From: Haloferula sp. BvORR071 | GTDB taxonomy: Bacteria > Verrucomicrobiota > Verrucomicrobiia > Verrucomicrobiales > Akkermansiaceae | Length of the DNA: 64,000 nt | Direction: 5' to 3' | Assembly (NCBI RefSeq): GCF_000739615.1 | Contig: NZ_BATP01000058.1 | Location: 1 to 64,000, forward strand | Shown: one piece after another, positions 41,920 through 48,314 of the stretch | How positions within the stretch are numbered: position 1 is the stretch's first letter | Layout of the letters: each line of letters opens with the position of its first letter | Made by a program: the position numbers and the translations under genes | Notes under the pieces: model-generated | What the model saw: only the letters and a program-made list of their open reading frames with translations | What the model was told of the DNA's origin: nothing | The model's database searches: none

Positions 41920-43113
41920 ATGATGAACCGCCGCCGCAGTCTTTCCCTCGCCCTCGCCGGTCTCGCCGCCGGCACCACCGCCGCCTGTCGCCGCGAGGAG
42001 GTAGCGAAAGCTCCCGAGCCCGCTCCCGCACCTCCGCCTCCATCGCCCCCGCGCAAGGATCTCGAAGGTTCGGCACTCACTCCGGTCTCGGTCGATCCAT
42101 CTTTGGAAATCCGCACCATAACCGGGCTGCGGCCCTTCCGGCCCTCCGGCTTTGTAGTGCGGCGGGAGGAGAGGGAAGGGAAGACGCTGGTCCACAACTA
42201 CGGCCATGGCGGGGCGGGGATCACCTTGTCGTGGGGCTGCGCAAATCTGGCGGCGAACTTGGTGCCTCTGGTGTCCGGTCTACCCTGCGCGGTGATTGGC
42301 GGCGGCGTGATCGGCTTGAGCACCGCCCGAATGCTCCAACTCCGCGGCGCGAAGGTCACCCTCTACACGGATCTGCTGCCACCCGACACCACCTCCAACA
42401 TTGCCGGGGGCCACTGGTGGCCGGTCTCAGTCTTCGATTCGAACAAGCGCACGCCGGAGTTCACCGCCCAGTTCCTGGACGCCGCGCGCTTCTCCTTCCG
42501 CTACTTCCAGCGTCTCATGGGGCCGCGTTGGGGTGTGCGCTGGGTGCCCAGCTACTACCTGAGCGAGGGTCCACCGGAGAATGGCTGGCTGGCTGGTCCC
42601 GGCGGGGTGCTGCATGAGACCCAAATCGGCTTCCGCGATTTCGGGCCCGGCGAGCACATTTTCCCGGCGGCCTATGTGCGGCGCTTCCACACCATCCTGA
42701 TCGATCCCTCGATCTATCTGGAGACCCTCCTGCGCGATGTCCAGGTGGCAGGTGGTGCGGTCGAGATCCGGCGCTTCGCCGGCGCGGACGAAATCCTGAA
42801 GCTGCCCCAGCAGACGATCTTCAACTGCACAGGTCTCGGAGCGCGCGAGCTCTTCGCGGATTCCGAGCTCACGCCGATCAAGGGCCAGCTCAGCATCCTC
42901 CTGCCCCAGCCTGCAGTGAACTACAATCTGATCAACGGCAGCTACTACATGTTTCCCCGTGCCGATGGCGTGGTCCTCGGCGGCACCTTTGAAAAGGGCA
43001 ACGGCGACCTCGCGCCGGATGATGCGGTGAAGTCGCGGGTCATCGCCGGGCAGCGGGCGATGTTCGAGCAGATGCGCGAGAACCAGAAGGGAATCCTTGC
43101 CGCCGCGCGCTGA
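41920..43113 (+). CDS. Circularly permuted D-amino-acid-oxidase-like FAD enzyme, Tat lipoprotein
   Basis: The 397-aa product begins with a twin-arginine signal (NRRRSLSLALAGLAAG) ending in a lipobox at C23, then a Pro/Ala-rich linker. Two blocks of the D-amino-acid oxidase family are in reversed order. The block that is C-terminal in DAAO (TGLRPFRP and HNYGHGGAGITLSWG, residues 68-106) comes first, followed by the dinucleotide motif AVIGGGVIGLSTA (GGGVIG 127-132) that is normally N-terminal. The chain ends with YMFPRADGVVLGGTFEKGN, which normally precedes the transferred block. The fold would be the same but cut at a new place. Tat export fits FAD loading before export. It likely oxidises amino acids outside the cytoplasm. 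Confidence 0.85.
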   Translation: MMNRRRSLSLALAGLAAGTTAACRREEVAKAPEPAPAPPPPSPPRKDLEGSALTPVSVDPSLEIRTITGLRPFRPSGFVVRREEREGKTLVHNYGHGGAGITLSWGCANLAANLVPLVSGLPCAVIGGGVIGLSTARMLQLRGAKVTLYTDLLPPDTTSNIAGGHWWPVSVFDSNKRTPEFTAQFLDAARFSFRYFQRLMGPRWGVRWVPSYYLSEGPPENGWLAGPGGVLHETQIGFRDFGPGEHIFPAAYVRRFHTILIDPSIYLETLLRDVQVAGGAVEIRRFAGADEILKLPQQTIFNCTGLGARELFADSELTPIKGQLSILLPQPAVNYNLINGSYYMFPRADGVVLGGTFEKGNGDLAPDDAVKSRVIAGQRAMFEQMRENQKGILAAAR

Positions 43114-44573: not shown

Positions 44574-47500
44574 TCAATTCTCAAACAACTCGATGCGGAA
44601 GAAGCGCTGGGGATCACCCGCAGGCTTGGTGATTAAGACCGGTCCACCACCAGCCGGCAGACCTTGGTTCTCCGGGATGTCCCAGAGGGTCCATTGATTG
44701 AGTCCTGTCGAGGTATGGATGCGGTAGGATCGGTTCGCTGGAACGCTGAAGTTTAGATTCAGCGACCCGCCGTCCACGCTCACGCCGGGGCGGAAGGCGC
44801 TGGCCGGGTCGTGGGGATTGGTTCCGGCGAGGAACTCTTCCTGATTCGTGAGGCCATCGCCATCGGGGTCCTCGGCCGGGGCGCCGCTGGGGTCATTGTC
44901 CGGCTCGAAGTTGGCGATCCGCCAGTCAGCATAGACTTGGCGTCCCGGTAGCTCGGTGGTGATCCATTGTGAGAGCAGGTTCGCATCCGTCTGGTCGATC
45001 ACGTTGCTGGCCAGTGGGGGCATGCGGCCGAAGCCTCCGGTGCCATTGACCCGCTGATAGACGATCGAGTTTGCGGTCGAGCCGGGGACCACCAGTTTGT
45101 TCGCCGCGTTGCCGCCATTGTTGTTCGGGGTGCCATTGATCAGCCCTGTGGCTGTTAGTGTGAGTTCCGGGCGGCCATCCCACGCTGTGGGTGCGCTGCC
45201 GCCCGCCTTGTGACAGTAGGAGCAATTGACCGCGATGTAAGAGCGCACCCGGGCCTCCAGTGGATAGTTGGTCTCATCCGGCCGCAGATGGCGCGGCAGC
45301 AGGTTCGGCGATCCCGGATCGTTGGTGAAGTATCCCTGCTGTTGCAGCGTCGTGAGCTGGTTGCCGCTGAAACCGAGCATGCTATTCGCCAGGTTGAGTT
45401 GGCGCGTGTTGAAGGACAGCGCATGCCCGGCCTGCGAGGTGTGGCATGCCATGCACTCCGCGCGGCTGGGGATGCGCCAGGTCTGCGGCACCGGATTGCC
45501 ATTCTCTGTGATCGCCAGGTTGAAGTTCACGCCGCCGTCCGGAACTAGGTCCGCTTCGGTCCCGGCGTCGTTCCAGCGGTAGCTCACGCCATAGGCACCG
45601 GTCGGGTTCTTGACGATCAGCCGAGTCTCGATCCGTTTCTTGCTCGCTGGAACCCCGCGCTGCATCTCCATATCGAAGTGCTTCACCCAGATCGTTCCGG
45701 ATGGCAGGGTCCACAGGCCATCCTGCGAGGTGGTGAATTGCGAAGTCCCATTCGGCACGATGAACCAGCGGCTCTTCACCGCGTGGTCGCTCCAGAAAGG
45801 CAGATTCACGTTGTAAGGAACCATCCCCGGCGACGGCGTCAGATCCGTGAGATCGGCAAACAAACCGGTGGCCGAAAGAGTCTCCGGAAAGCTCTGCGTC
45901 TGCGTGGATTGAACCAAGCGCAGAACGCGGTTACCATCGTTGTCCGCGATCAGGATATCGCCGTTTGAGGAATCGTAACCGAAGCCAGCGATGCCGGTCT
46001 CACCCGCAATCCGGGTCACGTTGCTGCCATTCAGATCCATCGACCAGATGTTGCCGGTGCCGTAGTCGCCGAAGATGTATTTCCCGCTGAGCGAGGGGAT
46101 GTTCGTACCGCGATAGACCCGCCCGCCCGTTACCGAGAAGCCTTGGAACTCCGCTGGCATCGAACTGCCGGTATCCGGCTGATCATAGGTGTAGGTCGGC
46201 TTGCTGTGGTAGAGCGTGTCGAAGTTGGCAGGCATCGTCGGGTTCGTGGTCCGGGCGCCCACGTCATTGCCCTCGCGGAAGACCCACCCGTAGTTGCCAC
46301 CGCGGGTGATGATGTTGATCTCCTCGTGCTTGTCCTGGCCAACATCGCCGCACCAGAGGGTGCCGGTCTGCGGATCGAAGGACATCCGCCAGGGATTGCG
46401 CAGGCCGGTGGCCCAGAACTCACTGCGGACCGTGCCGCTCACCGCACTGCCATTGTAGGTGCCATTCCAGTTGCCGCCGTTCGAGGGCAGCACGAAGGGG
46501 TTGGTCTTTGGGACCGAATAGCGCGCGATACCGTTATCATCCAGGATAATCGAGAGGTGTGGGTTCGGCTCAATGCTGTTCGTGGGGCTCTTGTCCACGT
46601 CGATCCGCAGGATGGCGGAGAAGAAGTCCTTGTTGATCTGCTGGCTGTTGATGAAGGTGTCGTTGCCGTCGCCCTCGTCACCTATGGAGATGTAGAGATA
46701 GCCATCGGGGCCGAAGTGCATGTCCCCGCCGTTGTGATTGCCTGCCTGGTCGAGTTGCTCGATCAGGATCGACTCGCTCGCGGCATCCGCAGCGTTGAAA
46801 TTTGCCTGCGCGGTGAAGCTCGACACCCGCTGGTAGCGCTGCCCGCCCTTGGTCACCGAGTAGAAGACGAAGAAGCGGCGGTTCGTCTGGTAGTTGGGAT
46901 GGAAGGCCAAGCCTAACAGACCGCACTCGGAGCCGGTATCGACGCTCTCGGTGGGGTTGTTGCGGGTGGCGAGAATGGTTGGCAGGTTGAGGAAGGTGGA
47001 AATTGTCGGCGTGGCGGCCGTGACATCCGGCACCATTTGCAGCAAGCCACCCTTTTGACTGATGAAGAGCCGCTTGGTATCGCCGGGTGCATTGGTGATG
47101 CCTACCGGGCTGGTGAAATCCAAGCCGCCGTTGTCATCGTTCGGCAGGGGAAAGGCGTTCACCAGTTGCAGCGCGGTAGTCGGCGGCGCTGCTGGCACGT
47201 TCAGGTTTGAGTTCGCCAGCTTGAGCGCGTTCTGGATCGTGATCGTGACCGTCGCCGTATTCGAGAAGCCGCCGCCACCACGCACGCGGTAGCTCAGCGA
47301 GTCGCTGGTCGCAGCGAGGTTGGTGTGCGTGTAGAGGATGCGCCCGTCACTCTGAACGCTGGCACTGCCGTTCACCGGTGCGCTGATGATCTCGACGCTG
47401 GAGGGGAATGCTTGGCCGCTGTCATTCGTCAGCACCGGGATGCCGGCTTTCTTGCCCGGCATCAGGGAGACGGTGTCGGCATTGGCGGTCGGCGTCATCG

Positions 47501-48314
47501 CGGCATCCACACCGGCCTTGCGGCTTGCGGTTTGGTCGATGGGCGACATCACGCCGGAGTAGAGGCGGAACTCGTCGTAGGAGATGTTCGAGTTGCTATC
47601 GTCAGTGAACTGCGAGCGCCCGAGCCAGTTGTTGACGTCCTCGATCTGGTTGAGCCGGAAGTTGGTGTCGACGAAGCCAACCTGAACTCCATCCCGATAC
47701 CAGGTGAAGCGACCGCCGGTGGCTGGATTTGCTCCGACCCCGGCCTGGAAGGTCGCCACGAAGTGGTAGCGGGTCCCGGGGACCATATCGACGCTGTTGT
47801 TATTGCCGAGTTCGGTGGCGCCGTCGTTGCGTGCTGCGATCCGCTGCTGGTTCAAGGCGGTGCCGCGTTGCGCTGCAAGCATCAGGTTGTCGCGCGAGGC
47901 CGCGGCGCTGGGCGCTCCGCCGCTGCCGGTCAACTCGCCGGGAGCACCATTCCCGGTAATACTCATTCGGCCGAAGTCGAAAAGCCGCTGCCAATTTTTG
48001 GAGGACTGGAGCGTCGCCCAGATCTCCACGGTCATGTCCGTCTTCGAGGAGACGATGCCATTCGGCAGATCGAAGTAAGCGGAAATGTTCGCGGGTGCCA
48101 GACTTCCGTTAGTGGTCCCGGGAAGAGTCAGGGCCGTGCCCGTGCGCACGGCCCCTACACCCACGATTGCGCCATTCGCTGAAGTGATCGAGTCCGGGAG
48201 AACCGTGCCATTCCCGGAAGCCCCGGTGCCATTGAAGGACCAGCGGTGCGTGATGGTTTGGGCCTGTGCCGAACCAAGAAGAACCGTGAAGAGGAGCGTG
48301 GCTTTCCGGGTCAT
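44574..48314 (-). CDS. Large secreted multidomain PQQ dehydrogenase / cytochrome c protein (LamG type)
   Basis: The 1246-aa product has a signal peptide (MTRKATLLFTVLLGSAQAQ), a LamG/concanavalin-like domain (about 22-265), an Ig/cadherin-like domain (about 275-365), a soluble glucose-dehydrogenase propeller (about 390-790; GLLGLAFHPN, LRNPWRMSFDPQTGTLWCGDVGQ) and a C-terminal part with two CxxCH haem motifs (CMACH and CSYCH). A calcium-type DPDGDGLTNQEEFLAGTNP segment and a small beta domain end the chain. It could oxidise a sugar with PQQ and pass electrons to its own haems. A paralogue lacking the first two domains is at 50982. Confidence 0.9.
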   Translation of the reverse strand: MTRKATLLFTVLLGSAQAQTITHRWSFNGTGASGNGTVLPDSITSANGAIVGVGAVRTGTALTLPGTTNGSLAPANISAYFDLPNGIVSSKTDMTVEIWATLQSSKNWQRLFDFGRMSITGNGAPGELTGSGGAPSAAASRDNLMLAAQRGTALNQQRIAARNDGATELGNNNSVDMVPGTRYHFVATFQAGVGANPATGGRFTWYRDGVQVGFVDTNFRLNQIEDVNNWLGRSQFTDDSNSNISYDEFRLYSGVMSPIDQTASRKAGVDAAMTPTANADTVSLMPGKKAGIPVLTNDSGQAFPSSVEIISAPVNGSASVQSDGRILYTHTNLAATSDSLSYRVRGGGGFSNTATVTITIQNALKLANSNLNVPAAPPTTALQLVNAFPLPNDDNGGLDFTSPVGITNAPGDTKRLFISQKGGLLQMVPDVTAATPTISTFLNLPTILATRNNPTESVDTGSECGLLGLAFHPNYQTNRRFFVFYSVTKGGQRYQRVSSFTAQANFNAADAASESILIEQLDQAGNHNGGDMHFGPDGYLYISIGDEGDGNDTFINSQQINKDFFSAILRIDVDKSPTNSIEPNPHLSIILDDNGIARYSVPKTNPFVLPSNGGNWNGTYNGSAVSGTVRSEFWATGLRNPWRMSFDPQTGTLWCGDVGQDKHEEINIITRGGNYGWVFREGNDVGARTTNPTMPANFDTLYHSKPTYTYDQPDTGSSMPAEFQGFSVTGGRVYRGTNIPSLSGKYIFGDYGTGNIWSMDLNGSNVTRIAGETGIAGFGYDSSNGDILIADNDGNRVLRLVQSTQTQSFPETLSATGLFADLTDLTPSPGMVPYNVNLPFWSDHAVKSRWFIVPNGTSQFTTSQDGLWTLPSGTIWVKHFDMEMQRGVPASKKRIETRLIVKNPTGAYGVSYRWNDAGTEADLVPDGGVNFNLAITENGNPVPQTWRIPSRAECMACHTSQAGHALSFNTRQLNLANSMLGFSGNQLTTLQQQGYFTNDPGSPNLLPRHLRPDETNYPLEARVRSYIAVNCSYCHKAGGSAPTAWDGRPELTLTATGLINGTPNNNGGNAANKLVVPGSTANSIVYQRVNGTGGFGRMPPLASNVIDQTDANLLSQWITTELPGRQVYADWRIANFEPDNDPSGAPAEDPDGDGLTNQEEFLAGTNPHDPASAFRPGVSVDGGSLNLNFSVPANRSYRIHTSTGLNQWTLWDIPENQGLPAGGGPVLITKPAGDPQRFFRIELFEN

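Follow-up and report, generated by a model that had tools for sequence, protein, structure and literature searches.

D-amino-acid oxidase (DAAO), a classical flavoenzyme that serves as a drug target and is used in industry, binds the carboxylate of its substrate through R283 and Y228; in human DASPO, the arginines of the FIRDG and GGTRQ segments have a role in D-Asp binding. To our knowledge, ThiO has no HNYGHGG block. Canonical bacterial DAAO-type proteins carry the FAD motif (GxGxxG) first and the HNYGHGG block last, whereas in the permuted clade described here the two follow the opposite order. A description of a permuted DAAO was not found in the literature searched, whose coverage is poor for subscription journals.

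The gene analysed here lies in a window of 64,000 nucleotides (the whole stretch of DNA under study) from Haloferula sp. BvORR071. It is an intact open frame on the plus strand, at 41923..43113 with the stop at 43113, and it encodes 396 amino acids plus stop; an alternative start is the ATG at 41920. A search of its own genome (7.8 Mb in 66 contigs) returned the window gene itself as the single match. The protein starts with MNRRRSLSLALAGLAAGTTAAC, comprising a twin-arginine leader in which residue 22 is a lipobox-like cysteine, and continues with some 30 residues of proline-rich linker. All three family motifs, namely GxGxxG, the GLRP arginine and the HNYGHGG block, are present in the window protein. 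The sole Pfam match over the cut-off was DAO (PF01266; E 3.7e-32, 112.7 bits versus a gathering threshold of 27.9), which was found in two stretches, the better one placing residues 123-384 on positions 3-300 of the 353 of the profile.

The initial annotation had located the HNYGHGG block ahead of the FAD motif, and this order was confirmed: counting from the start at 41923, the GLRP...HNYGHGG...WG segment spans residues 68-105 and GGGVIG residues 126-131 (42298..42315, plus strand), the latter having been given as 127-132, which fits a numbering from the ATG at 41920. The HNYGHGG sequence itself occupies residues 91-97 (42193..42213, plus strand), with G97 aligned to G313 of DAAO, and the three glycines of the FAD motif are found in 72 of 72 aligned rows (63 permuted and 9 canonical). 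The transferred block comprises residues 52-114 (42076..42264, plus strand), as delimited by phmmer matches at 56-114 (6rkf) and 63-113 (1an9), and the FAD-domain core comprises residues 119-396 (42277..43110, plus strand), its part aligned by VIA-align being equivalent to DAAO residues 1-271 approximately. What is C-terminal in DAAO (about residues 272-330) is therefore found at the N-terminus here, about 9 residues away from the FAD-binding beta strand.

As found by phmmer against the PDB, pig DAAO (1an9) matches the window protein twice, with residues 123-361 on DAAO 4-247 (i-E 5.2e-14) and residues 63-113 on DAAO 276-329 (i-E 1.2e-7), and the swapped order of these two matches is well above chance. 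A rotated copy of the protein, made with one rotation point only (residues 119-396 followed by 52-118), matched in one stretch the Pfam DAO profile (3-353 of 353), 6rkf (4-341 to 15-334, 100.9 bits, the native pieces scoring 76.9 and 29.2 bits) and 1an9 (5-340 to 4-329, 84.6 bits). The total scores were barely raised by the rotation, from 106.6 to 107.1 bits for 6rkf, from 89.9 to 91.6 for 1an9 and from 112.7 to 117.7 for Pfam; the effect of rotation is that two pieces become one, and not a gain in score. Since the rotated copy gives a single colinear match while a canonical bacterial protein (L115) is colinear without any rotation, these results indicate a circular permutation and not a truncation. 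Furthermore, no second GxGxxG motif was seen by eye before the HNYGHGG block in the open frame upstream, which extends to 41407 and mostly lies opposite a FkbM-type gene.

The structure of the protein was predicted by AlphaFold2 on an alignment of 52 rows, giving a model with a mean pLDDT of 90.7 and a pTM of 0.85, in which residues 1-50 (leader and linker) have low confidence. The modelled elements are, in order, strands at 62-72, 78-84 and 87-93, a helix at 96-111, the FAD strand at 121-125, about 9 residues past this helix, and, as the last element, a long helix at 367-395. The top Foldseek hits were human DASPO and mammalian DAAO, with TM values of 0.55-0.59 over the whole query (ranks 1-25), and the same proteins filled ranks 1-14 of VIA-align, which superposed residues 118-385 on DAAO 1-271 (Z 22.7-23.4, rmsd 1.8-2.2 A over 244-252 residues). 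Both programs preserve sequence order and cover residues 118-385 only, and by both the predicted fold of this part is that of DAAO, in agreement with the family proposed in the initial annotation. The place of residues 52-114 in the fold is suggested by the sequence matches and by the confidence of a single model. The earlier statement that the chain ends right after LGGTFEKGN had to be corrected, as about 36 more residues follow, mostly in the long helix; because this tail, up to residues 382-385, aligns with mammalian DAAO and DASPO up to residues 263-271, the cut can be placed near residue 270 of DAAO.

Scanning one genome per species returned at least 562 relatives, the best 80 of which were kept. 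HNYGHGG precedes GxGxxG in 80 out of these 80 best of at least 562, a count that includes L059, whose FAD motif, read by eye as GAGVNG in the same place, is missed by the regex; the FAD motif of L007 and L047 was missed by one regex and displayed in a separate check. Homologues with the same order thus exist, and the gene, which had been treated as a single odd case, is instead a member of a widespread permuted clade. The distance from HNYGHGG to GxGxxG is 35 residues in 67 of the 80 kept relatives, which by their record titles belong to Acidobacteriota, Pseudomonadota, Gemmatimonadota, Bacteroidota and other phyla. Close kin of the window protein, with 75, 69, 64 and 62% identity across almost their whole length, are stop-free.

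Colinearity after rotation, the DAAO fold predicted for residues 118-385 and the like order of 80 of 80 kept relatives bear out the earlier proposal of a true circular permutation as opposed to a truncation, and we consider it almost certain that the protein is a circular permutation of the DAAO lineage. A truncated pseudogene, a frameshift or an assembly artefact could be argued from a few relatives that have an in-frame stop inside the match (G522, G601) or, as in Mesorhizobium, are split into two annotated genes, but nothing in the window speaks for it, and the stop-free close kin and the at least 562 relatives in several phyla, alike in order in the best 80, reduce its probability to a negligible level. 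Truncation, pseudogene formation and misassembly were ruled out by the order shared in 80 of 80 kept relatives of at least 562.

The HNYGHGG block occurs in one copy in each of the 80 kept relatives and none of these (0 of 80) has two blocks, so the path that led to the present order is not visible. This leaves some room for domain shuffling, in which the N-terminal block would have been acquired separately and the original C-terminal block lost, with no permutation by tandem duplication. However, the cut and joining points are as the duplication-and-trim model predicts, the end product would be identical, and trees of the core only and of the rotated sequences each give one permuted clade; we therefore regard shuffling as improbable and retain circular permutation.

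Sampling by taxon gave matches in 24 of 387 genomes of the window's phylum, comprising 10 permuted proteins, 1 canonical protein (G166) and 13 short or partial matches, and in 32 of 299 genomes of Pseudomonadota, the phylum of Dokdonella (L005), comprising 15 permuted proteins and 17 short or partial matches. Plasmids contributed 51 records with a match, and the 12 inspected were equally divided into permuted and canonical forms (6 each), one of the six permuted forms (L110) being split into two annotated genes. When the canonical protein L115 was used as query, matches were obtained in 103 of the 299 Pseudomonadota genomes, many of them short or weak, and a canonical HNYGHGG-type protein was not found by regex in 30 loci from this query; the HNYAHGG variant of Burkholderia (L117), which escapes the canonical regex, was added to the tree by hand.

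Altogether, 109 permuted proteins were examined, and all the permuted proteins placed on trees form one clade. Its support was 100/99 in the maximum-likelihood trees of rotated sequences, and the core block alone, for which no rotation is needed, recovered the permuted clade with an SH-aLRT of 100 in a quick tree. Group A includes the window protein, group B is marked by a GWSLSWG motif (L087-L090, L107, L113, L133-L137, L139 and L140, the last with a broken frame) and group C consists of the proteins from Rhizobium, Bradyrhizobium, Nonomuraea, G217, G502 and G550. Group C is the sister of A plus B (support 100/99 and 99/95, respectively), and it has the permuted order too, with a junction 4 residues longer than usual; L077 and L080, labelled group A, were placed beside group B. 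The tree contained 34 of the 80 kept loci, L059 being excluded by the regex and L122-L126 as repeats, and L091, L096 and L140 were excluded from the second rotated tree and from the core-only tree. Canonical bacterial DAAO-type proteins adjoin the permuted clade; because the first tree was rooted on one distant outgroup (end branch 6.81) and held only 9 canonical rows, a position nested within the canonical proteins is weakly indicated. That there is one permuted clade is firm. Its members are widespread, mostly carry export leaders and make up a permuted branch within the DAAO lineage, and since the window protein does not follow the FAD-first, HNYGHGG-last order, we assign it to this derived branch and not to canonical DAAO.

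The twin arginines of the Tat-type leader, R3-R4 (41929..41934, plus strand), are invariant in 52 of 52 aligned rows and the lipobox-type cysteine C22 (in TAAC; 41986..41988, plus strand) is conserved in at least 90% of the 52. Judging from these sequence features, Tat export of the window protein is very probable and a lipid anchor on it has good, somewhat lower probability. Leader regex positives were 90 of 90 in group A (including L077, L080 and the window protein), 12 of 13 in group B, whose single miss is the broken frame L140, 2 of 6 in group C and 1 of 6 among the canonical proteins, with a pattern so loose that 838 of 2180 shuffled segments pass too; because of this looseness, the alignment columns were preferred as evidence for the leader. 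The lipobox cysteine was found by pattern in 64 of 90 proteins of group A, 7 of 13 of group B and 0 of 6 of group C. By eye, 5 of the 6 group C proteins lack a leader and start some 25 residues ahead of GLRP (the starts of L086, L108 and L132 having been picked by eye and those of L109 and L112 taken as annotated) and L138 has a twin-arginine leader; the regex positives of this group are L138, a real leader, and L109, where the match is upstream of the annotated start. The six canonical proteins show no export leader by eye, the regex positive L111 not being a leader on this inspection. The initial annotation had called a Tat lipoprotein unusual for the family, which holds for the canonical rows examined but does not hold for groups A and B, where the twin-arginine leader is the rule.

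The minimum number of changes on the tree is 1 for the block order and 2 for the leader (labelled by eye), counts which alone do not separate gain from loss. Because group C is permuted and mostly leaderless, the permutation probably preceded the export leaders, and the simplest reading is probably that the order changed first and that export leaders were afterwards added to the N-terminus so created. The idea that export caused the permutation is unsupported, given that 5 of the 6 group C proteins have the permuted order but no leader.

Gene neighbourhoods were compared by clustering the open frames, chosen by length only, around the 80 loci. Considering the 25 largest clusters, the largest spans at most 13 loci; the largest ones are, by record title, sphingomonad or gammaproteobacterial, and a few small clusters mix phyla. 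With a maximum of 13 of the 80 loci per cluster, the context points to neither the substrate nor the acceptor. Around the window gene lie a FkbM-type methyltransferase gene, on the opposite strand, and a gene for a DNA-alkylation-repair protein, 17 bases downstream; other neighbours encode an MBOAT O-acyltransferase and a product containing a glucose/sorbosone-dehydrogenase domain. Of the close relatives L082-L085, only L082 was seen to have the FkbM and DNA-alkylation neighbours (flanks of about 1500 bases). Positions 44574-48314 of the window (minus strand) encode a 1246-aa protein with laminin-G-like, bacterial Ig-like and glucose/sorbosone-dehydrogenase domains and a TSP3 repeat. A recurrent downstream gene was observed in 12 loci (L028, L033, L039, L042, L045, L047, L050, L051, L056, L058, L063 and L068; sphingomonads where named), within 64 bases in at least 8, and from its start it may be a HslU-type ATPase gene. 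On rhizobial plasmids (L109 2941-4002 and L112 2926-3978; Rhizobium, Bradyrhizobium) the group C gene lies between genes for a FAD-binding oxidoreductase and a thiamine-diphosphate enzyme, and in Mesorhizobium (L110), where the permuted gene is annotated as two, the thiamine-diphosphate enzyme gene is retained. This group C plasmid neighbourhood suggests a small conserved pathway. In Kozakia baliensis (L113, 2902-4562), an annotated cytochrome c gene starts 6 bases past the end of the group B gene, and this cytochrome c is a possible electron acceptor.

With regard to the active site, the FAD glycines 7, 9 and 12, R283, H307, Y309 and G313 (pig DAAO mapping) are conserved in all 63 permuted rows, and the window protein has R70, Y342 and G97 as equivalents of R283, Y228 and G313. 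R70 (42130..42132, plus strand), which we take to be the substrate-carboxylate residue, is an arginine in all 63 permuted and all 9 canonical rows, and Y342 (42946..42948, plus strand) is Y in 39 of 44 rows of group A, 6 of 6 of group C and 2 of 13 of group B. The lid tyrosine Y224 corresponds to a gap in the window protein and is Y in 2 of 44 group A rows, in a region that aligns poorly; the segment is gapped in 29 of 44 rows of group A, 12 of 13 of group B and 6 of 6 of group C, and at least 6 of the 9 canonical rows have another residue at this position. At the positions of the DASPO arginines of FIRDG and GGTRQ, the window protein has I and F, the same as pig DAAO. In group B, the first glycine of the LGG strand is replaced by Q in 11 of 13 proteins, and because Y228 is kept in only 2 of 13 this group may have another function; the loss of both features in most members suggests a changed chemistry.

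Because the R283 and Y228 equivalents are kept, the substrate of the window protein is likely to be a 2-amino or 2-hydroxy acid, with a site more similar to that of DAAO than to that of DASPO, and a D-amino-acid-type substrate is slightly favoured. Alternatively, the same permuted fold could belong to a dehydrogenase that uses a respiratory acceptor, its substrate being for example an amine, a 2-hydroxy acid, glycine or an imino acid. The absence of Y224 and the shortened lid are consistent with this, as are the Kozakia cytochrome c gene next to a group B gene and the matches of the window protein to the NCBIfam models for glycine oxidase ThiO and D-amino-acid dehydrogenase, both far below their cut-offs. 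On the other hand, the canonical DAAO and DASPO rows share with the permuted proteins the HNYGHGG block and R283, and with groups A and C also Y228, and the nearest solved proteins are DAAO and DASPO; a different substrate appears possible but is not the reading that we favour.

In the reading that we favour, the Tat pathway would export the folded protein with FAD already bound, and the lipid on C22 would anchor it at the membrane, facing the periplasm. There, R70 and Y342 would hold a D-amino acid (or similar 2-amino or 2-hydroxy acid), the alpha carbon of which would be oxidised, and the electrons would pass to O2 or to a respiratory acceptor. We consider it likely that the gene encodes such an exported, lipid-anchored, permuted FAD enzyme, which would act in the periplasm as an oxidising enzyme for D-amino acids or acids like them, its substrate, acceptor and location being those that we infer. 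A broader and more tentative scenario, to which we give less than even weight, is that one ancient permutation shifted the N-terminus from the buried FAD strand to a surface loop, giving room for leaders that were taken up at least 2 times, and that the resulting widespread periplasmic lipid-anchored D-amino-acid-oxidising enzyme takes the place of canonical DAAO in many Gram-negative bacteria. A natural permutation of DAAO with a mostly leaderless sister group offers a test case for the effects of permutation on folding, cofactor loading and export. Naturally permuted, exported oxidases would have potential use in biosensors, and a periplasmic route would be suggested for D-amino acids released from peptidoglycan.

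Compared with the known systems, the window protein has in common with human DASPO (6rkf), pig (1an9), human (2du8) and yeast (1c0i) DAAO the FAD-domain fold, the GxGxxG motif, the GLRP arginine, the HNYGHGG-type block and the Y228 equivalent, and it differs from DAAO and DASPO in its swapped blocks and its N-terminal Tat-type lipoprotein leader. Its lid is shortened and without Y224 with respect to pig DAAO, and with respect to DASPO it is devoid of the FIRDG and GGTRQ arginines. ThiO and other enzymes of the DAO superfamily have the FAD-domain superfamily in common with it, but they are less similar in structure and sequence than DAAO and DASPO (Z 17.2-17.9 by VIA-align for glycine oxidases). 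The motifs are also common to the canonical bacterial proteins from Tsukamurella (L115), Streptomyces (L111 and L114), Mycobacterium (L116), Burkholderia (L117) and Nocardia (L118), and to L091 (G166) from the window's own phylum.
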